A DNA stretch of 47,548 bases from a virus: positions 1 through 47,548 of IMG/VR virus record IMGVR_UViG_3300044911_002024. One strand, given 5' to 3'. This document shows positions 4,595 to 47,548 of the stretch, piece after piece. Both the position numbers and the translations under genes were made by a program. The notes below the pieces were generated by a model. It worked only from the letters and a program-made list of their open reading frames with translations, ran no database searches and was not told where the DNA came from. Each line of letters opens with the position of its first letter. Position 1 is the first letter of the stretch.

Positions 4595-4621
4595 GTTATT
4601 CCTGCCAACTTAGATGTCGCG
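4595..4621 (-). repeat. 27-nt direct repeat, copy 2
   Basis: Second copy, overlapping the last codons of the C5 methyltransferase gene and the leader of the 83-residue gene. It differs from copy 1 at two positions; one changes ATG to TTG at the equivalent start codon. Confidence 0.85.
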
Positions 4622-5305
4622 ACCAGTAGGCAAGGAAAGAAAGTTTTTCGCCTGCTCACCGACGTGCTGTGTGTATGCCGGAGGGAACCCCTCTTTCAGC
4701 TCGTCCCAGGATATGCCGCGCGAGACGCCCATAGCCTCGCGGCCTTCTTCGACTGTGCGGGCCGTCGAGCCGCCGACAACTAACTTGCCAGTCTTCTTGC
4801 AGACCCCTTTGCAGGTGTCGCCCATAACGTGGTAGACGCCCACAGGCTTTCCCTGCTCCTTGTGCTTGCAGCCTGATCCAGCCAGCGGAAACGACGCCAA
4901 GAAAAGCCGGTGCCGACGCACCTTGAGTCCGTATGCGGAACCGCACTCAACCGCGGCCCCGTCCATGCCTGGGGCGCCAACCACATTCTCGACCACCCAA
5001 GGAATGTCATACTTTCTTAGCAAAGCCAGTGTCGGAGTCAGGAGGTCGCCGTGCCGGCTGCGGCCGCCCTGCGCCTCCCGAAGATGCTTGGCCCTGGTGT
5101 GCGCCTGGCACGGAGGTGAGGCGTGTATGAGGTCAAACTGCTCGACGAATCTTCGGTCGTTGAGGATCGAAAGAGCGTCCCCCCAGACGAACTCGTATGG
5201 GTACGAAGCGCGCAACACAATGTCCACGCCAGTCGGCTCAAACCCCGCTGCGGCGTACCCGTCAGCCGCCATGCCTGCGCCGCAATAAAGGTCGAGGACT
5301 TTCAT
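4610..5305 (-). CDS. DNA (cytosine-5) methyltransferase
   Basis: 231 residues, shorter than typical 300-400-residue C5 enzymes, so the target recognition region is small. Motif I is DLYCGAGMAADGY (5-17), motif IV SPPCQ with nucleophile C66, motif VI ENV (106-108), motif VIII RHRLF (131-135). A late HVGEQ may stand for motif X. It should methylate C5 of cytosine in a short DNA site. The start overlaps the upstream methyltransferase stop (ATGA). It probably protects phage DNA from host restriction. Confidence 0.88.
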   Translation of the reverse strand: MKVLDLYCGAGMAADGYAAAGFEPTGVDIVLRASYPYEFVWGDALSILNDRRFVEQFDLIHASPPCQAHTRAKHLREAQGGRSRHGDLLTPTLALLRKYDIPWVVENVVGAPGMDGAAVECGSAYGLKVRRHRLFLASFPLAGSGCKHKEQGKPVGVYHVMGDTCKGVCKKTGKLVVGGSTARTVEEGREAMGVSRGISWDELKEGFPPAYTQHVGEQAKNFLSLPTGRDI

Positions 5306-6042
5306 GCCACACCGTTCAGCGAGTTCGCCACACGCCAGCCGGCGATCTTGGCGTACTCAGGATTCAGTTCGCACCCGATGCCGCTGCGGCCCAGGCGGGC
5401 GGCGACCGCCAGCGTCGTGCCGGAGCCGGCGAATGGGTCGAGGATCGTGTCGCCTGCATTGCTCGAGACGCGGATGATCCGCTCGACCAGTTCCTCCGGC
5501 AGTTGAGTCGGCACACCCTTCACCCGCTCGCGGAACGTGCCGCAGACCCGGTTGATCTGCCACACGTCGCCCATGATCTTGCCGGCCGGGTTGGCCCTCT
5601 TGTCGGCGTACTTCTCCTGCCTGGCCGACGGCACGGTCACGGCCTCGGCGTTGAACGTGAAGTGCTTCGGGTCTTTGACGGCGTAGTAGATCGGCCGCGA
5701 GCACCGCCCGAACTTCCGCTGGCAGTAGACGCCGAACGTCTCGTGCCAAGTGACGCGATTGCGGATCGTCAGGCCAGCCATCTGCATCTTCACGTCGATC
5801 CACGAGCCGTATTCCTGCCCGCTGATTATCCACATGGAGCCGTGCGGCTTGAGCGCCCGGTAGCACCAGCCGATCCACCGACCGCACCACTCGACGTAGT
5901 CGTCGATCAGGTCAGCCTTTGGCCCCCGGCCGTAGTCGATGCCGATGTTGTATGGCGGGTCAGTAACGACCAGATCGACGCTTTCTCGCTCGAGCGTCTT
6001 CAGCGATTCGATGCAGTCGCCGGTGATGATGCGGGTGCTCAC
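5302..6042 (-). CDS. DNA N6-adenine/N4-cytosine methyltransferase, beta class
   Basis: GTG 6042 overlaps the upstream stop as GTGA. 246 residues. The order is DPPYN (28-32, motif IV), a variable target region, then DPFAGSGTT (about 202-210, motif I), which is the beta-class arrangement of the N6_N4_Mtase family. It transfers methyl from SAM to adenine N6 or cytosine N4 on DNA; the motifs alone do not decide which. It is the middle gene of three consecutive methyltransferases. Confidence 0.9.
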   Translation of the reverse strand: MSTRIITGDCIESLKTLERESVDLVVTDPPYNIGIDYGRGPKADLIDDYVEWCGRWIGWCYRALKPHGSMWIISGQEYGSWIDVKMQMAGLTIRNRVTWHETFGVYCQRKFGRCSRPIYYAVKDPKHFTFNAEAVTVPSARQEKYADKRANPAGKIMGDVWQINRVCGTFRERVKGVPTQLPEELVERIIRVSSNAGDTILDPFAGSGTTLAVAARLGRSGIGCELNPEYAKIAGWRVANSLNGVA

Positions 6043-6692
6043 GTCAGCCCCCCCCACTGGTTAGCCATCGCGGCGGCCCAGCCGGCAAACGTCTCGCTCC
6101 TGATCTTCCAGCGATCATCTGCCGGCGGCTCCTTGTTCTGGCCGCTGTCGGTCTGGTTGCCCCAGCGAAACGAGTAGCTGCGGCAGTCCGTAGAAAGCGC
6201 GAGGCGGGGGGGGGCGAACGCAGTCGGCTCGAGCCGCGGCAGACCCTTCAGCCACAGGCAGGTCTTTTTGCTGGCGTCGTCGCCGTACTCGTATGGCTGG
6301 ATGAACTGATCCGGTTCCCGCCACCGCGTCGAGAGCACGCCAACCGGATTCTCAATGGCAATCCTCGGAATCGGCGCGTTCGCCAGCGCCATGACGAACC
6401 GAATGGCTTCCTCGCGGGCGTCGCGGCGGGCCTGACCAATCAGCGTGCTTGGCTTCATCTTCTTGGTCTGCACGTCCCTGTAGGCCCACTCGGCCGACAC
6501 GGTCAGGTAGGTGCATGGGGGATGCGCGATCATCAAATCCCAACCGCGGTCGAGCAACTCAAGAACGTCACCCTGATAGTGCTGTCCAGTAGTATCAGAG
6601 GGCAGCAGGTCGCAACTCATGGCCTCGTGGCCGGCTGCGATGAACGCATCCCGTACTCGGCCGCTGTATTCGCAGGCGACGAGGACTTTCAT
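6039..6692 (-). CDS. Cytosine-5 methyltransferase-like protein, divergent
   Basis: 217 residues from ATG 6692 (ATGA with the upstream gene). It keeps a Rossmann start (MKVLVACEYSGRVRDAF), the catalytic-type HPPC (C60) and an EN dipeptide in IAIENPVG (E114), but has PPCT instead of PPCQ and ENP instead of ENV. This divergent Dcm-like group is common in phages, and base specificity is not established from sequence. Activity on cytosine C5 is inferred. It may give a second modification alongside the two neighbouring enzymes. Confidence 0.75.
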   Translation of the reverse strand: MKVLVACEYSGRVRDAFIAAGHEAMSCDLLPSDTTGQHYQGDVLELLDRGWDLMIAHPPCTYLTVSAEWAYRDVQTKKMKPSTLIGQARRDAREEAIRFVMALANAPIPRIAIENPVGVLSTRWREPDQFIQPYEYGDDASKKTCLWLKGLPRLEPTAFAPPRLALSTDCRSYSFRWGNQTDSGQNKEPPADDRWKIRSETFAGWAAAMANQWGGLT

Positions 6693-6934
6693 GCGACCCT
6701 CGCCTCCCACCGATAAACCGCTCGGTCAGGCGTCACCTGCGCGAGCAGGATGTCGGCCACGCTCACGCTTGAGAGCCGGAAACCCTGGAGCGAATAGCAG
6801 CCAGCCGGCATGCGGATCGTCCCCAGCGTGTCAGTCGCAGGCTCGATGGCCCCGATGCCGCCGTCGAACGGCCCGCCGATGTACTCGGGCGTGACGAACG
6901 GCTTCTCGGGGTAGGGGTGCAGAATGCCAGTCAT
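6689..6934 (-). CDS. Phage protein of unknown function, 81 aa
   Basis: ATG 6934 overlaps the stop of the small membrane gene (ATGA). The protein has EYIGGPFDGGIGAIEP near the N-terminus and ends VTPDRAVYRWEA. This GGPxDG...YxW pattern occurs in small phage proteins of unknown function. No catalytic motif. It is coupled to the methyltransferases downstream. Confidence 0.6.
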   Translation of the reverse strand: MTGILHPYPEKPFVTPEYIGGPFDGGIGAIEPATDTLGTIRMPAGCYSLQGFRLSSVSVADILLAQVTPDRAVYRWEARVA

Positions 6935-12968: not shown

Positions 12969-13439
12969 TCAACGTGACGCGATCGGTTGGAGCACGCACT
13001 CCCACCGAACTTTTCGGGCGTTTGCTTGCGTCGGCCGCCTTGGTCGCGACCTGCAAGACCATTCGCCAGCCCGCCTTGAGCCAGCCGGAGTCCAACCCGC
13101 GCTCTTGTAGATTGTTCCTTCGTGAACTGAAGTGTCTTGATAGCTCACAAGCCGACGAATGTGCGCCATCTCCCTTCCGATGAGCCTCCTCATTACGCCC
13201 AGCACTCGGCTGCCTGTGTTTTTTGGCGCGTCTGGCGCAATGGCAAACCTGCGCAGCTCAAGCGTTTGGCCGTCGTTCAACATTCTTGCAACAGGTGATG
13301 TCCATATAGCGACCGCGTAGGCAACCTCGCTGTCGCTCGCCATGTAGCAAACGTAGTCAGCGTTTCTGTAGATATTTGACCGCTCAATCACCGGGAGCCT
13401 GCTGTGCCACTTGCGGACGAGGTCGCAAGCAAAAAACAC
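12969..13439 (-). CDS. GNAT-type acetyltransferase, possibly Mom-like
   Basis: Start set at GTG 13439 after an AAAGG site, just downstream of the tRNA-like element; 156 residues. Features are WHSRLP (11-16), AVAIWTSPVARML (42-54), the core ELRRFAIAPDAPKNTGSRVL (61-80), LVSYQDT (97-103) and HEGTIYKSAGW (106-116). This matches a widespread phage family with a GNAT-like core, for which a relation to Mu Mom DNA modification has been suggested. With three DNA methyltransferases nearby, a role in base modification is attractive but unproven. Confidence 0.65.
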   Translation of the reverse strand: MFFACDLVRKWHSRLPVIERSNIYRNADYVCYMASDSEVAYAVAIWTSPVARMLNDGQTLELRRFAIAPDAPKNTGSRVLGVMRRLIGREMAHIRRLVSYQDTSVHEGTIYKSAGWTPAGSRRAGEWSCRSRPRRPTQANARKVRWECVLQPIASR

Positions 13440-13465
13440 CGAACACCTTTCGACTATCAAGCGAA

Positions 13466-13537
13466 GCGCAGAGGTCGGACTCGAACCGCCCCCCCCCTCT
13501 TGGAATAGAGGGTGTGCCACCCGGTCACTTCCTGCGC
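13466..13537 (-). tRNA. Degenerate tRNA-like element, isotype uncertain
   Basis: 72 bases on the minus strand. The ends GCGCAGG and TCTGCGC pair fully (one G-U). A T-arm with TTCGAGT loop and a mostly paired 5-6-bp stem follows a run of nine G. A D-arm GTG...CAC stem holds a GGG/GG loop. The anticodon arm is odd: CCCTCT/AGAGGG leaves only six loop bases, or an eight-base loop if the stem is shortened. Depending on register the anticodon would be UCC (Gly) or CCA (Trp). No CCA end is encoded. It may be a decayed or non-standard phage tRNA. Confidence 0.5.
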
Positions 13538-13569
13538 GGTTGTCCACAGTTTCACCTTTGTCCAAAGTT

Positions 13570-14004
13570 TCAACGTGACGTGACGTGCCGCAACACCGGG
13601 CGAACGAACTCGCCCACCAACCCGTCGAACTCCGTCCCAGCCGAGTAGGGCTGGCGGGCATCCTTGCCCGCCGTTTTCGCCCTCTCGGTCAACTCAGCTT
13701 TGAGCCGAGCCGTGTTCACCTGCGTGACCGCGTCCAGCAGCCCCGCACGTCGGGCGGCCTCCATTACCGCCTCCTTTCGCGCCTCCGGCGCAGAGAACGA
13801 GTGACTCCACTCGATCCTCCAACTCCTCCCTGCGGCCTTGACTCCATCCAATCGGCCGTTCGTCATCTCCTCGATCGCGATGCCCTCGAGGTGAGCACGC
13901 TTTTCCTTGAGCGTGTCGATCTTGTCGTTCAACTCCTTGACCTGCGCGTCGATCTCGCTGATCTCAGCGAGCGCGCGTTGCAGCGTATCCGTCGATGATT
14001 GCAC
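13570..14004 (-). CDS. Coiled-coil phage protein, 144 aa
   Basis: GTG 14004 is the chosen start: AAGGAGG lies six bases upstream and the frame overlaps the SNF2 helicase end by 41 bases. Residues 8-45 form a coiled coil (LAEISEIDAQVKELNDKIDT and onward). Then comes a small alpha/beta region (SWRIEWSHSFSAPEARKEAV) and a basic C-terminus. Comparable proteins sit beside recombination genes in other phages and may bind single strands or inhibit host nucleases, but I see no diagnostic motif. Confidence 0.6.
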   Translation of the reverse strand: MQSSTDTLQRALAEISEIDAQVKELNDKIDTLKEKRAHLEGIAIEEMTNGRLDGVKAAGRSWRIEWSHSFSAPEARKEAVMEAARRAGLLDAVTQVNTARLKAELTERAKTAGKDARQPYSAGTEFDGLVGEFVRPVLRHVTSR

Positions 14005-22484: not shown

Positions 22485-23054
22485 CTACGGGGTCGATACC
22501 CTTATTGTAGCCACGAGGCGACTATGAAAGGCGGCATCCACGGCATCCTCGAGGTCGTCGAGGGTGCCGACGTTCCTGACCACCTGATGAATCAGGTGGT
22601 CAGGAATCCCTGCCTCGCTCGCGTGCTCACCTGCCGCCCCGCCCAGCCCCGCGCCCGGCCGCTCGACCCGCCAGACCTGCCCGCCGCCGGCCACGATGGC
22701 CTCGGCCTCGTTTGTGAACCGCACGTCGGTGATCGCGACGTTCCAGCCCTCCTGCGTGTACTCGGCGGCCCGCCGCATGGCGATTCTGATCCAGATGTCG
22801 TCCCGCACCATCTGCCTCCCCCACTCGGTGCCGAGCGTTTGGAGCAACTCCCGCGGCGATTTCCCCAGCCACGGGATCGGCCGCTCCTTGGCCTCGCGGT
22901 TTTTCAGTTGGGCCGGCGGCAGGCCGGTGATCTCGCTGACGGCCTTGTAGATCGGCCCGGCGAACGAGATCGCCGCGAACCGCCACCGGCGGGAGAGAAT
23001 CGCCGACACCTCGTCCTTGCCGCTGCCGGCCAATCCGCACAGTCCGATGATCAT
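22485..23054 (-). CDS. Deoxynucleoside monophosphate kinase
   Basis: 189 residues, close to phage dNMP kinases such as the T4 gene 1 family. P-loop GLAGSGKD (7-14), ELLQTLGTEWGRQMVRDDIW around 70-90 for nucleotide contacts, AITDVRFTNEAEAI near 108, then WRVERPG. It phosphorylates dNMPs to dNDPs with ATP and supplies precursors, including modified ones in some phages. It overlaps the phosphoesterase gene by ATGA. A perfect 16-bp inverted repeat lies in the last third of the gene. Confidence 0.85.
   Translation of the reverse strand: MIIGLCGLAGSGKDEVSAILSRRWRFAAISFAGPIYKAVSEITGLPPAQLKNREAKERPIPWLGKSPRELLQTLGTEWGRQMVRDDIWIRIAMRRAAEYTQEGWNVAITDVRFTNEAEAIVAGGGQVWRVERPGAGLGGAAGEHASEAGIPDHLIHQVVRNVGTLDDLEDAVDAAFHSRLVATIRVSTP
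22573..22606. repeat. Perfect 16-bp inverted repeat with 2-base centre
   Basis: TTCCTGACCACCTGAT and its exact complement flank a two-base centre at 22589-22590. The repeat lies inside the coding sequence of the dNMP kinase (residues IPDHLIHQVVRNV region), about 90 bases before its stop. A match of this length at such spacing is very unlikely by chance. It could extrude as a cruciform, form an RNA hairpin, or bind a dimeric protein. Confidence 0.95.
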
Positions 23055-42798: not shown

Positions 42799-44399
42799 GT
42801 TTTCGTCGCCTCCTCGTAGGGCTTGCCAGACCGATGGCAGTCCAGCAGTCGATCCCGCGTGCTCTCCATCCACTCAGTCACGAATGTGTCGATGTCGCGG
42901 CCAGTCGCCTTGGCGGCGTCGCAGAGTTCCGTCCGCATCCGCTGCTCGTGCGCCTCGAGCCACGTCTGCAACTTGGCCGGCTTGTTGCGGCGTTCCAGAA
43001 TGCCGTCGGCCTCGACGGCGGCGAGCCGCCGGAGGGTCGTGCGGAAGAGAGCTTCGCGGGCGTCGGTGACGGCGGCGTCGGACGGGGCAGGGCCGTCATT
43101 GCCGTCCAACTGGTCGTCGTCCTCGCTGTTGTCGTCCGGTTCGTCAGCCGGAGCGGCCGGCTGCGCCGGGTTCTCCGGCTGACCGTTCGGCGTCTCCACC
43201 GTGAACGCATCCAGCAACTGCATATTCACCTGCACGAATCGCTTGTTGCCGAGGCCGTCGGGCAGGGGGTTGTAGCCGATCTGGGCGCGAATCTCGTCCA
43301 CCGACAGGGCGCCCATGTTGAACGCCTCCCGCATGAACTGGGAGCGGGCCGCGAAGTCGCCGGCCAGGAGCGCCGTCGTGTCGAACTCCACGAAGTAGTC
43401 GCGATCCTCGGTGATCAGGTCGCGGCGGCAGGCAAACTGCCAGCGGCGGGTGTGCGGGTAGAGGCCGAAGGTGACGAAGTCGATGGCTGCCTGCTCGACC
43501 GTGCTGTGCCGCACATTCGTCAGGTCGCCGAGCATATGGAGAGGAACCCGATAGCACCTGGCGATCTCCTCGACGGCGTAGCGCCTGGTGTCGATCAGAG
43601 CACTGTGCTGGTTGTTGACCGGGTCGGTCTTCTTGTGGAAGCCGTGGGGCATGACCACGGTTCCGAAGGCTTTCATCGGGCCGCGGTGGGCGTCGTCCCA
43701 TTGCTGCTTGAACCGCTGGATCGCCTCTGGCTTGAAGGGCTGATCGACCTCGATGTAAGTGCCGCTGGTGGCCCCATTCCCAAAGAATGCGGACGAGTAC
43801 AGTTCCGTTGCCCGCGCCAGCCCGATCGCGTCCTGGGAGAGGGTGGTGGGGACGTAGCCTGTCACGCCGTCGCTCGAGAGCCAGCGCAGGTGGAAAATCT
43901 GATCCTGACGGTAGTTCGTCGGGGTCGGCTTGCCGTCCTCTCGGTACTGGTACTGGAGCCGGCCGTTCTCAAGCCGCACGATCTCCATGCGGGAGGCGTG
44001 GAGCGGGATGAGTTGATCGACGCTGCCGCGCCGGCCGGGGCGGATCAGCGAGTAGGCGTTGCCCCAGAGGAGCATCTGGCTGGTCATCCACTCGCGCCAC
44101 TCGAACGAGGTCATCCAGTCGTTCGGCTGGTAGGCCAGCACGTCTTGGAGCGGGTGGTCTTCGGCGATTTCCTTGCCGCCGCCGGGTATCTTGCGGTAGA
44201 CGTTGAATGGCATCGCGGCCATCGATTCGGCCAGCACCCTGACGCACGACAGGACGGCCGAGCAGCGGAGGCTCGACTCCGGCGAGACGTAGACGCCGGC
44301 GGCGCCCTTGCGACTCTCGACGATCTCCTCGAAGACCCGCGAGAGGCTGGTTCGCATCTCGTACAGGTCGCCGGCGTCCGCGTATTGCGTTTCAGCCAC
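42765..44399 (-). CDS. Portal protein, HK97 family
   Basis: 544 residues from GTG 44399, whose G is the last base of the large terminase TAG. Typical blocks: SSLRCSAVLSCVRVLAESMA, DHPLQDVLAYQPNDWMTSFE, ILWGNAY-like region LLWGNAYSLIRPGRRG, DTRRYAVEEIARCYRVPLHM and LGDLTNVRHSTVEQAAIDFV. It forms the dodecameric DNA gate. C-terminal 130 residues are acidic and variable. Confidence 0.95.
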   Translation of the reverse strand: MAETQYADAGDLYEMRTSLSRVFEEIVESRKGAAGVYVSPESSLRCSAVLSCVRVLAESMAAMPFNVYRKIPGGGKEIAEDHPLQDVLAYQPNDWMTSFEWREWMTSQMLLWGNAYSLIRPGRRGSVDQLIPLHASRMEIVRLENGRLQYQYREDGKPTPTNYRQDQIFHLRWLSSDGVTGYVPTTLSQDAIGLARATELYSSAFFGNGATSGTYIEVDQPFKPEAIQRFKQQWDDAHRGPMKAFGTVVMPHGFHKKTDPVNNQHSALIDTRRYAVEEIARCYRVPLHMLGDLTNVRHSTVEQAAIDFVTFGLYPHTRRWQFACRRDLITEDRDYFVEFDTTALLAGDFAARSQFMREAFNMGALSVDEIRAQIGYNPLPDGLGNKRFVQVNMQLLDAFTVETPNGQPENPAQPAAPADEPDDNSEDDDQLDGNDGPAPSDAAVTDAREALFRTTLRRLAAVEADGILERRNKPAKLQTWLEAHEQRMRTELCDAAKATGRDIDTFVTEWMESTRDRLLDCHRSGKPYEEATKTWTDRANLNGG

Positions 44400-46996
44400 T
44401 AAAACACCACCAGTTGCGGGTCTTCGTCGATTCCTTTGACCTCGGCACTCGCGAGGCCCAATGCCATGATCAGGGCCACGGCCGCGTCAATTCGGCTTGT
44501 CGAGTTTGAGTTGCTCTTCGTGGGCTTGATGTTCCCTGCGTCGTCCTGCCGCACCTGAAGGTTGCTCGTGTGGAGCGTCAATGGCGGGTTGCCGCCGTGC
44601 CGGAGACGCTGACTGAGCACGGTCGCTTCAAGGAGCTTGGTAGGCGCCGACAAAGAGGCATAGCCCTGCCCATAAGGCTTTACGTCAACGCCCTCGTTCA
44701 CCAACTGGGTCGTAATATGGGTCGCATTCCAGCGATCAATTGCCACGCCGCGAACCACGTTCTCCTCGCAAAACGAGAGGACGTAGTCGCGAACAACGTC
44801 GTAATCCGTAATGTCTCCTTCAGTTATTGTACAAAACCCGTCCTTGGCCCATTGACGATAGGGGGCTTCCGAGCGGTCAATGTTCTTCTCGGGGATGAAG
44901 ACGTGCGCCATCGCGTCGTAGGTGCCGTCGGGGTTGCCGTTCTCGTCCAGGCCGGGCCAGACGGCGGCGAACGCCGTCGTGTCCTGCGTGCTCGAGAGGT
45001 CGAGGCCGCAGTAGCAGGGGCGATCCGCCGGTGGCCGCAGCGGCTGGCCGCACGCCTCGAACTGGCCCGTCCTGAAGAACTTGTTGGCCCCGTTACTGCA
45101 CCACTGGTTCAGGTAGAGGGTGCGGAACTTCAGTTCTTGGGCGACCGACTCGCGGGCCAGGGCGGCCTCGCGCTCAAGGAACTCGGGCCTTACCGTGATT
45201 GAGAAGTTCGGATTAGCTTTTGCCCACGTTTTGGGGTCGTAGGGGTCGTCGTCTGGTTCAGCCGCGTGAATGCACGGCAGGAATGTGGGGTCTTCAATGA
45301 TGCCGTCGCGAACCTTGATCGCCCTTTGCCACTCGTCATAGCAAGGGCCGACTCTGTCCATGCCCGCCGTTGTCACATAGATGACGAGCGGCTCGGCTCG
45401 CGCGCCCATGCCGCTCTCTAACACGTCTATCAAATCCCGATTGGGCTGGACGTGGAATTCGTCTACCAGCACCAGCGACGGATTGAAGCCGTGTTTTCCG
45501 CGATGCTCGCTAGAAAGGAACTGAATTACGCTGCTCTTGTGCGGAATTACTATTGAGCCTTTGTATATCTTCGCCCTCTTGAGCAGGCCAGGACAGGACT
45601 CGATGTAACGCGAGCACGCAGTGAACAGGAGGCTGGCCTGCTTCCGGTCGCCGGCGGCGATCAGAATCTGGCCTCCGGCCTCGCCGAAGAACCCCTCGTA
45701 GGCGCCGATGACGGCGCACATGGCTGAGTTGTGGGTCGGGATGAGCGATCGACCCGCAAGGAACATTCCGTCCTCGCTGGCGACTTGAATGCAGCGGACG
45801 GGGACCGATTCGGTGGGGTCGCACGAGACGATCTGTCGCGTTCGGGATCGCGGCTGGACGCTAGGCGGCGACTTCACCCTCGCCTGCTTCCGCTCCATCC
45901 TGAAGACTTTAGCGGGCAGGAGGGGCGTGAACTGAACGCGGTACTTTGGGCCGATGACTCGGCCATGAAGTTTCGCCACGCCTTCATTGAGCATGACTTT
46001 GAAGCCCAAGCCCGCCGCCAATTCCGCGAAGTCCTCGGCGAGCCGTCGCTTGACGGAGGTGAACTCGCACTGGCCTCGGTGAGCAATGGTGCCGTCGGTA
46101 TCCATGAGCCCCTGGAGGAGGGCCACACGCTGCTCGACGCTTGCCTGAAGGTACGCCGTCGGTATGTGCTTGTTGTTGAGGAGGTTGAGCCGGCGAAGCT
46201 GAGTCCGTATCGCAAGGACTCCTTTTCCGCGGTTCTTCTTGCGGTGGGCGTTGCCGCCAAGGCAGACGGTTAGGGCGGCATCGCCGTATTGCTTGACTGA
46301 AACTGGCGCCCCTGCGGCGACTAGATTGTCAACTATTGTGCGTTCGTGCCGACTAACGGTTACGGTGGCGGCGGATGACGTGCCGTCGCCCAGCCAAACC
46401 CCAAGCACATAGGGGTCGATAGGAAGTTCAGCCGCGGGCATCTGGAGCGGCTCCGCGACGGCGACGCTGTGATTGCGGTCGCCGCGGCCTCCTGTGAGGC
46501 AGGTTTCCGCTATCTGGCGAGTTGTTCTGATCGACCAGCCGGCCTTAGACCTGCCTTTGTTGCCGATGCCGGAGCCCGGCCGATCAATCCTCGCGTGTGT
46601 CAGCCAAAGGTGCTCGGCGTCCGCGATGATCTCGTCGGCTCGAGCGAACTCGACCTTGTAACACGGCCTATCGTGCATTACATCACTGACAGCGATGACG
46701 CCAACAGGGCGGCCGGACGGATGGAAGACTTGGTCGCCGACCTTGACCGACCCCATCGTCTTCCACCCATCGGTGGTCAGGAGCGGTGTGTTGAGGGCCA
46801 GGGCTTTCCCATTCTTCCGCGGAATCGCCAGCAAACTCCGCTGGTACTGCCGGCGGCCGTCGGGGCGAAGGGTGTTGAAGAGCTTGTCGAGGTACTCGTC
46901 CTGCCAGGGCTCCGGCACAAAAGGCTGCCCTGTGAAGGGGCTTTCTGTGTGCTTTAGTAACCTGGCGAACTGGCGAATGTCAACCTGACGTGCCAT
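44399..46996 (-). CDS. terL: Terminase large subunit, interrupted by a class 3 intein
   Basis: 865-residue precursor from ATG 46996 (upstream ATGs at 47008 and 47047 are possible); spliced terminase would be 506 aa. The host protein has LLAIPRKNGK at the P-loop, immediately broken by the intein and resuming SAMCAVIGAYEGFFGEAGGQ. Walker B is VLVDEFH, and the nuclease part has YCGLDLSSTQDTTAF. It cuts and pumps DNA into the head. With the P-loop split, activity should need protein splicing. Ends on the portal start codon. Confidence 0.95.
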   Translation of the reverse strand: MARQVDIRQFARLLKHTESPFTGQPFVPEPWQDEYLDKLFNTLRPDGRRQYQRSLLAIPRKNGKALALNTPLLTTDGWKTMGSVKVGDQVFHPSGRPVGVIAVSDVMHDRPCYKVEFARADEIIADAEHLWLTHARIDRPGSGIGNKGRSKAGWSIRTTRQIAETCLTGGRGDRNHSVAVAEPLQMPAAELPIDPYVLGVWLGDGTSSAATVTVSRHERTIVDNLVAAGAPVSVKQYGDAALTVCLGGNAHRKKNRGKGVLAIRTQLRRLNLLNNKHIPTAYLQASVEQRVALLQGLMDTDGTIAHRGQCEFTSVKRRLAEDFAELAAGLGFKVMLNEGVAKLHGRVIGPKYRVQFTPLLPAKVFRMERKQARVKSPPSVQPRSRTRQIVSCDPTESVPVRCIQVASEDGMFLAGRSLIPTHNSAMCAVIGAYEGFFGEAGGQILIAAGDRKQASLLFTACSRYIESCPGLLKRAKIYKGSIVIPHKSSVIQFLSSEHRGKHGFNPSLVLVDEFHVQPNRDLIDVLESGMGARAEPLVIYVTTAGMDRVGPCYDEWQRAIKVRDGIIEDPTFLPCIHAAEPDDDPYDPKTWAKANPNFSITVRPEFLEREAALARESVAQELKFRTLYLNQWCSNGANKFFRTGQFEACGQPLRPPADRPCYCGLDLSSTQDTTAFAAVWPGLDENGNPDGTYDAMAHVFIPEKNIDRSEAPYRQWAKDGFCTITEGDITDYDVVRDYVLSFCEENVVRGVAIDRWNATHITTQLVNEGVDVKPYGQGYASLSAPTKLLEATVLSQRLRHGGNPPLTLHTSNLQVRQDDAGNIKPTKSNSNSTSRIDAAVALIMALGLASAEVKGIDEDPQLVVF
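45728..46804 (-). other. Class 3 intein with LAGLIDADG-type endonuclease
   Basis: 359 residues (65-423 of the precursor), between P-loop lysine and serine. Residue 1 is Ala, not Cys/Ser. The class 3 triad is present: W67 in ADAEHLW, C338 in VPVRCIQVA, T357 in LIPTHN, with terminal H358-N359 and Ser as +1. The middle holds both endonuclease dodecapeptides, VLGVWLGDG (133-141) and LLQGLMDTDG (229-238). Block A reads ALALNTPLLTTDGW. Splicing and homing competence are expected from the intact motifs. Confidence 0.93.
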
Positions 46997-47462
46997 CGAA
47001 AAGGGCATCCACGGGGTCGGCGACCACCTTGACCGCGCCGTACCCAAGTCGGGTGCGGTCGGCGGGGGTCAGGCCCAGCACCGTCTCGAGGTGCCGGAGT
47101 TGCTCGCCCGTGTCCTTGGCCTGGGCGGCCATCGCGGTCGGCCGCGAGAATCGCAGCGAACCGTCTGGCCCCAGAATCTCCTTGTAGAGACAATCGACCT
47201 GCTGAAGCTGCTGGACGGAATACTCCCAGGCAACGTAGGTCGTGCAGTAGCGGGTGATGACGTGCTCGTCGGTTTCGGCGAGCGTACCCATCCGCTCGAG
47301 CCAGCCCACGACCCGCACAAACACCTCTTTCGCCCGTGGTTTCAGCCACTCCGGCGGCAGCATGGCCTCGGCGGGCTTCGTCCCCAGTTCCTCGCGGGTC
47401 TTGGCGTGCTTCGACCCCACGAGTTGGAGAACGTGCTTCGGCTTTGGAGGGCGACCCTTCAT
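46980..47462 (-). CDS. terS: Terminase small subunit, P27 family
   Basis: 160 residues from ATG 47462 (ATG 47471 also possible). MKGRPPKPKHVLQLVGSK at the N-terminus, then LGTKPAEAMLPPEWLKP and RAKEVFVRVVGWLERMGTLA, follow the P27-type small terminase. It recognises phage DNA and loads the large subunit, with which it overlaps by 17 bases. Upstream the same frame stays open to the window edge, but the conserved part starts here. Confidence 0.88.
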   Translation of the reverse strand: MKGRPPKPKHVLQLVGSKHAKTREELGTKPAEAMLPPEWLKPRAKEVFVRVVGWLERMGTLAETDEHVITRYCTTYVAWEYSVQQLQQVDCLYKEILGPDGSLRFSRPTAMAAQAKDTGEQLRHLETVLGLTPADRTRLGYGAVKVVADPVDALFDGTSG

Positions 47463-47548
47463 GCCTGCCATCCTACTGGACGGCAGAACCAGGCCGCAAA
47501 GGAGTCGGCGGGCGAAATGGCCCAGTTTTGTCGCCGCCTGCTCGGGCA
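47463..47548. other. Right-edge stretch without an assignable gene
   Basis: 86 bases. The minus strand carries no clear start signal; one frame ends in TAG just before the terS start and could be the tail of another gene outside the window. No terminal repeat with the left edge is visible. Confidence 0.4.

Follow-up and report, generated by a model that had tools for sequence, protein, structure and literature searches.

A class 3 LAGLIDADG intein interrupting the Walker A motif of a phage large terminase subunit

The large terminase subunit (TerL) of an HK97-type phage is interrupted in its Walker A loop by an insert which is very probably a complete class 3 LAGLIDADG intein, and probably an active one. 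The sequence analysed, hereafter the window, is a 47,548-base virus record of IMG/VR type. The insert is assigned to class 3, and to the TerL P-loop, because of its signature residues, its homologues, the existence of empty alleles and its predicted fold. The locus is a well-supported additional member of a known intein type at a known site, hosted by an uncultured TerL clade. Judging from the sequences of close relatives, some of which carry the insert and some of which do not, the intein still moves between phages. The set of alleles, and the question raised by a cysteine at position 48, are of more interest than the intein itself.

The interrupted terminase gene

The TerL ORF lies on the minus strand, from the ATG at 46996 to the stop at 44399; this ATG is the likely start, rather than the TTG at 47047 of the mechanical ORF list. 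The gene is split at 46804-45728 by 359 in-frame, stop-free codons, which start with ALALNTPLL and end with SLIPTHN. These limits, set by the first-pass annotation, are exact, as the Ala1 codon occupies 46804-46802 and the Asn359 codon 45730-45728. Pfam domains TerL_ATPase (PF03354, E=6.6e-21) and TerL_nuclease (PF20441, E=5.3e-31) were both found outside the insert, and LAGLIDADG_3 (PF14528, E=3.8e-7) inside it. The N-extein is 81-92% identical to the N-terminal part of the nearest intein-free TerLs. The gene is directly preceded by terS and followed by genes for the portal, the head protease and the major head protein. The features of the locus are:

46980..47471, minus strand: terS, terminase small subunit (phrog_83, E=3.3e-27); its stop overlaps the TerL start
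46805..46996, minus strand: TerL N-extein, 64 aa from the ATG, ending IPRKNGK, the first part of Walker A
45728..46804, minus strand: class 3 LAGLIDADG intein, 359 aa
46802..46804, minus strand: Ala1; the N-terminal nucleophile is absent, which excludes class 1; Ala in 56/58 distinct homologues
46661..46663, minus strand: Cys48, numbered like the redox partner found in M. smegmatis DnaBi1 (PMC6195587)
46604..46606, minus strand: Trp67, block B:12, of the WCT triplet; the preceding DAEH provides Asp62 and His65
46382..46411, minus strand: first LAGLIDADG motif, YVLGVWLGDG, with Asp140
46091..46120, minus strand: second LAGLIDADG motif, LLQGLMDTDG, with Asp237 (PF14528)
45791..45793, minus strand: Cys338, block F:4, the nucleophile predicted to initiate splicing and to serve as branch point
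45734..45736, minus strand: Thr357, block G:5, of the WCT triplet
45728..45733, minus strand: His358-Asn359, C-terminal splice junction (Asn359 codon 45730-45728)
45725..45727, minus strand: Ser+1 (TCA), the predicted second nucleophile, which also supplies the hydroxyl of Walker A; 84/84 intein-free relatives have Thr (ACN) here
44399..45727, minus strand: TerL C-extein, with the remaining ATPase and the nuclease domain, stop included (PF03354, PF20441); 93% identical to the intein-free allele L083

Class 3 inteins lack an N-terminal nucleophile, and carry Trp at B:12, Cys at F:4, Thr at G:5 and Ser or Thr at +1 (PMC3196547, PMC5222942). In the window intein position 1 is Ala, and not Ser, Thr or Cys; Trp67, two residues past the block B His65, aligns with Trp67 of 6bs8 and 6rix; Cys338 aligns with the VPVRC of the same proteins; Thr357 is found within PTHN, and the terminal Asn359 is followed by Ser. 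Ala1, the W67-C338-T357 triad and the His-Asn ending followed by Ser all lie where the first-pass annotation had placed them. Both dodecapeptides are kept, as it had also claimed (YVLGVWLGDG and GLMDTDG), with the catalytic acids D140 and D237, and the insertion falls, as described, exactly between GK and S (RKNGK/SAMC). RKNGK/S, which corresponds to RKQGK/T in empty alleles, is the site of the TerL1-a inteins of mycobacteriophages, located between the Walker A Lys and Thr of TerL (PMC5050341); the type was therefore known, as had been supposed.

Among solved structures, the class 3 DnaB inteins 6rix, 6riy and 6bs8 come closest (E about 1e-25); they align from residue 1 and share the residue numbering of the window intein through Trp67. 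The AlphaFold2 model of the intein, built with 37 sequences, has a pLDDT of 91.2 and a pTM of 0.90. PI-SceI was the top Foldseek match (E 1.3e-20), and I-DmoI was also matched; 6riy, 6rix and 6bs8 (E 2e-9 to 5e-8, target TM 0.81-0.86) ranked behind other endonuclease-bearing inteins. A 6,147-bp stretch that includes the whole intein recurs with 100% identity in a second contig, L082, which counts against an assembly error. No further class 3-type intein was found elsewhere within the window, and the RNA structure at the intein junction was unremarkable (z=+1.2).

Splicing would start with the attack of Cys338 on the Lys-Ala1 peptide bond, forming the block F branch. Ser+1 would then accept the N-extein, and Asn359 would cyclise, GK and S being joined in a continuous GKS Walker A P-loop. 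As the P-loop is split in the precursor, normal ATP binding and hydrolysis by TerL would not be expected, given the site, before splicing. The same Ser would act first as a nucleophile in splicing and then, in the mature protein, as Mg-ATP ligand, two roles that one Ser also plays in DnaBi1 (PMC6195587). A degenerate insertion, which has lost splicing or hosts a dead endonuclease, has a precedent in the class 3 intein pseudogene Arth_1007 (PMC3196547), yet is very unlikely here: all the catalytic residues and both LAGLIDADG aspartates are retained, TerL is essential for a tailed phage, and the ORF is intact in two contigs.

Empty, occupied and converted alleles

About 95 related TerLs were gathered from viral contigs. 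In the 84 empty alleles with a readable junction GK is joined directly to Thr, the insert being absent at precisely the same position; six alleles are occupied by an intein. The nearest empties, L083-L087, are 92-93% identical to the window in the C-extein, and the nearest is 93% identical over the joined exteins. The alignment of intein-free homologues across the junction, suggested in the first-pass annotation as a check, identifies the segment as an insertion, and not as an ordinary stretch of TerL. That it could be a normal domain, specific to this family, with no intein at all, can practically be dismissed, as 84 relatives do without it and the insert has a predicted intein-plus-endonuclease fold.

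The +1 codon is Ser (TCA or TCG) in 6/6 occupied alleles, and Thr (ACN) in 84/84 empties. The association corresponds to only 5-6 independent contrasts, all in the same direction; a sign test on the five well-supported contrasts gives p=0.0625. The data do not favour Ser+1 as the ancestral residue of the P-loop, since every intein-free relative has Thr.

In a TerL tree computed without the intein and the +1 residue, the six occupied alleles are scattered and need 6 changes, at least 5 of which are forced by starred, well-supported branches. The inteins themselves all fall in a single clade (SH-aLRT 99). Identity between any two inteins at this site is no higher than 46-70%, so that transfers need not be recent.

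Two occupied alleles, L164 and L170, plainly carry what read as gene-conversion tracts around the insert. From -186 to -62 they have zero mismatches to their own empty clades; from -62 to about +560 they differ from these by 8-25 mismatches per 62 nt and, downstream of the intein, largely match each other; past about +660 they are again 0.95-1.00 identical to their own clades. Such tracts argue that the element homes. The pattern in the window allele is suggestive of a short conversion tract upstream of the intein. The last 31 nt before the intein have 4-5 mismatches to the occupied alleles L136 and L140 against 9-10 to the own clade, a tract score reached by 2-7 of 756 windows; past the +1 codon, the next 31 nt show no difference from L083. 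Some inteins are mosaics. Those of L136 and L140 exhibit 92-97% nucleotide identity over the first 40 codons, and about 40-50% over much of the core; those of L164 and L170 are 87-96% alike in the last 36 codons. Similar ends adjoining strongly diverged cores suggest recombination within the intein, or exchange of the endonuclease domain, at one site.

The endonuclease would plausibly cut the intein-free GK/T alleles of co-infecting phages, and repair would copy the intein along with variable flanks, Ser codon included. It is probable that the intein is a purely selfish homing element, which splices fast and constitutively and has no regulatory effect. The intact endonuclease motifs, the scattered distribution on the TerL tree, the conversion tracts and the empty alleles of near relatives all fit this, as does the fast splicing of other TerL inteins (PMC5050341); the counterargument is indirect, and comes from a homologous class 3 intein in which splicing is slow or conditional (PMC6195587). 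Empty, occupied and gene-converted alleles, found side by side in one uncultured TerL clade, amount to a natural homing experiment.

Homologous inteins and cysteine 48

Homologues were surveyed in two ways. The first set (58 distinct sequences) was partly collected with the peptides IADAEHLW and MHDRPCYK, and is biased accordingly at D62, H65 and W67 and in some Cys48 rows. The second set (80 loci) was obtained by searching viral contigs for endonuclease motifs alone; W-C-T is found in 79/80 of these loci, and its conservation is thus independent of how loci were found. Lack of W/C/T conservation against class 3 inteins had been named beforehand as a ground for abandoning the assignment; the three residues are conserved. 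In the first set, 56/57 distinct other homologues sit after a GK dipeptide, and the +1 residue of the 57 is Thr (29), Ser (27) or Cys (1). A general Ser requirement for class 3 splicing was rejected, Thr+1 being found in about half of the homologues. Most of the host proteins are TerLs, which belong to two families (TerL_ATPase and Terminase_6); DnaB/AAA-type and primase-like proteins are hosts in single cases. Some variants were noticed. The inteins at L046:3001-3981 and L058:2112-3101 have Pro or Ser at position 1, the other class 3 residues being complete, and those at L053:3001-4059 and L070 end with T-S-N instead of T-H-N, the penultimate residue being Ser.

In the intein tree, which includes very few class 1 rows and has modest support at its deep branches, the window intein is located near DnaB1 class 3 inteins with a support of 84 (not starred). 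The M. smegmatis DnaBi1 (6BS8) and M. chimaera DnaB1 (6RIX/6RIY) inteins share with it the numbering of Ala1, Cys48, Asp62, His65 and Trp67, the GK/S insertion in the P-loop, that of DnaB for DnaBi1 (PMC6195587), and the fold of the splicing domain. They are mini-inteins of about 139-145 aa, hosted by DnaB and lacking the endonuclease, whereas the window intein is full-length and interrupts a phage TerL. The intein of mycobacteriophage SophKB gp9 (TerL1-a, PMC5050341), whose TerL1-a membership was read from the junction ARKNGK/TELL and is to be taken as such a reading, resembles that of the window in host protein, Walker A Lys/hydroxyl site, class 3 residues, Cys48 and LAGLIDADG motifs. The two are 39% identical, differ at +1 (Thr in SophKB, Ser in the window) and are not sister groups in the intein tree; the same site is occupied by different lineages and, unlike SophKB, the TerL in the window belongs to an uncultured clade. 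The closest match in a catalogued phage, 41% identical over all 359 residues, is the DnaB intein of Brevibacterium phage Rousseau (OV696622), which shares the P-loop GK insertion, W-C-T and Cys48, but is hosted by a DnaB helicase and is followed by Thr. This class 3 P-loop intein spans OV696622.1 30756-31814, in an annotated DnaB-like helicase whose product name makes no mention of an intein. The inteins of Violet gp10 (TerL) and Zeeculate gp67 (RecB-like) feature W-C-T in a phage setting as well; unlike that of the window, they are not inserted after the Walker A GK and have Thr at position 48.

In M. smegmatis DnaBi1, oxidants reversibly link Cys48 to the catalytic Cys by a disulfide, and splicing stops (PMC6195587). 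Zinc and chlorine species likewise block splicing in the mycobacterial class 3 inteins (PMC7360933, PMC8557812). The window intein has both Cys48 and Cys338 at positions homologous to the DnaBi1 pair. Cys48 is present in 58/58 homologues of the first set, in part selected on nearby residues, and in 48/79 class 3 inteins (about 61%) of the endonuclease-selected set. It is missing from several catalogued W-C-T phage inteins, as those of Violet TerL and Zeeculate RecB. The hypothesis that Cys48 is universal in class 3 was rejected on the 48/79 count, obtained once loci found only by endonuclease motifs were considered. Judging from these alignments, Cys48 is common, not universal, in class 3 inteins; DnaBi1 and the window intein both have it. 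The residue was termed non-conserved in the DnaBi1 study, where every Cys48 substitution tried abolished splicing (PMC6195587); its invariance in the nearest homologues, and its frequency of about 61% in the class 3 sample, bear on that label.

The control point proposed in the first-pass annotation is still hypothetical, but Cys48 allows it to be put in more specific terms. Oxidation could join Cys48 to Cys338 and block splicing, leaving TerL inactive until the cell is reduced. The disulfide demonstrated in DnaBi1, the frequency of Cys48 in both sets and the effects of zinc and chlorine species would be in keeping with such a switch on packaging, which is nonetheless unlikely. Cys48 is frequent in phage inteins of many gene contexts, tested mycobacteriophage TerL inteins spliced rapidly (PMC5050341), and homing is enough to maintain an intein whose endonuclease is intact, with no need of a benefit to the phage. 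Moreover, as DnaBi1 Cys48 mutants never splice, the residue may just serve folding or catalysis (PMC6195587), and it is possible, and equally simple, that Cys48 is structurally required in this intein lineage. The broader idea that Cys48 renders the window intein, and the many phage P-loop inteins that have this residue, thiol-gated is improbable. Were it true, the packaging motor, or DnaB-type helicases in other phages, would be off under oxidative or metal stress, and reduction of the Cys48-Cys338 bond would release the motor. Redox sensitivity could be a property of the lineage, or the by-product of a residue required for splicing, rather than a mycobacterial adaptation.

A more complex arrangement was observed at L029:2761-6812 (L281, IMGVR_UViG_3300001270_000035), where a Terminase_6-type TerL is split over two ORFs. 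In the first ORF the N-extein, ending ARQTGK, is followed by a class 3 intein (ALDINT...PTHN), then by CVVGNTEVDVVD... (37 aa) and a stop. This 37-aa segment (CVVGNTEV...), located directly after the class 3 intein, is the apparent N-part of a split intein. Two ORFs lie downstream. One shows a zinc-finger-like match to ROS_MUCR (PF05443); the other has 605 aa, the first 160 of which resemble parts of gp41-1 (E 2e-4) and of the VidaL intein (E 1e-3). The intein-like part of the latter ends with SHN/STVSAAF, and its remainder is TerL. Simpler states of the same site are the empty alleles L282 and L288, L283 with the class 3 intein only, and L290 with the split intein only (CVSGDT... after GK). 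Two unrelated inteins are apparently stacked at a single TerL P-loop. If this is real, the +1 residue of the class 3 intein would be supplied by Cys1 of the split intein, and a Cys at +1 has been reported for just one class 3 intein (PMC5222942).

Phage lineage and other regions of the window

The nearest TerL of a catalogued phage is about 41% identical to that of the window. TerL and portal searches of phage records gave a best identity of 41% and named no host; a scan of bacterial genomes for TerL relatives detected two MAGs only, at 31-33% identity, and no tRNA genes were found in the window. With TerL relatives as distant as these, the phage belongs to an uncultured clade. The early suggestion that the host lineage may be new is thus supported in part, for the phage clade, by these identities (about 41% to catalogued phages and 31-33% to the two MAGs).

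Away from the terminase locus, three consecutive DNA methyltransferase genes (4610-6710, minus strand), a Mom-family protein (PF25680, E=7.9e-12; 12969-13661, minus strand) and a deoxynucleotide monophosphate kinase gene (22485-23054) constitute an apparent DNA-modification set. A direct terminal repeat was not found in the window. Its right end (47548) coincides to the base with the end of L082, and contig ends of the window, L082 and about 27/30 hand-picked relatives fall just ahead of terS, at a distance of roughly 715-937 nt upstream from the TerL P-loop. These shared ends hint at a fixed DNA end, such as a cos site.
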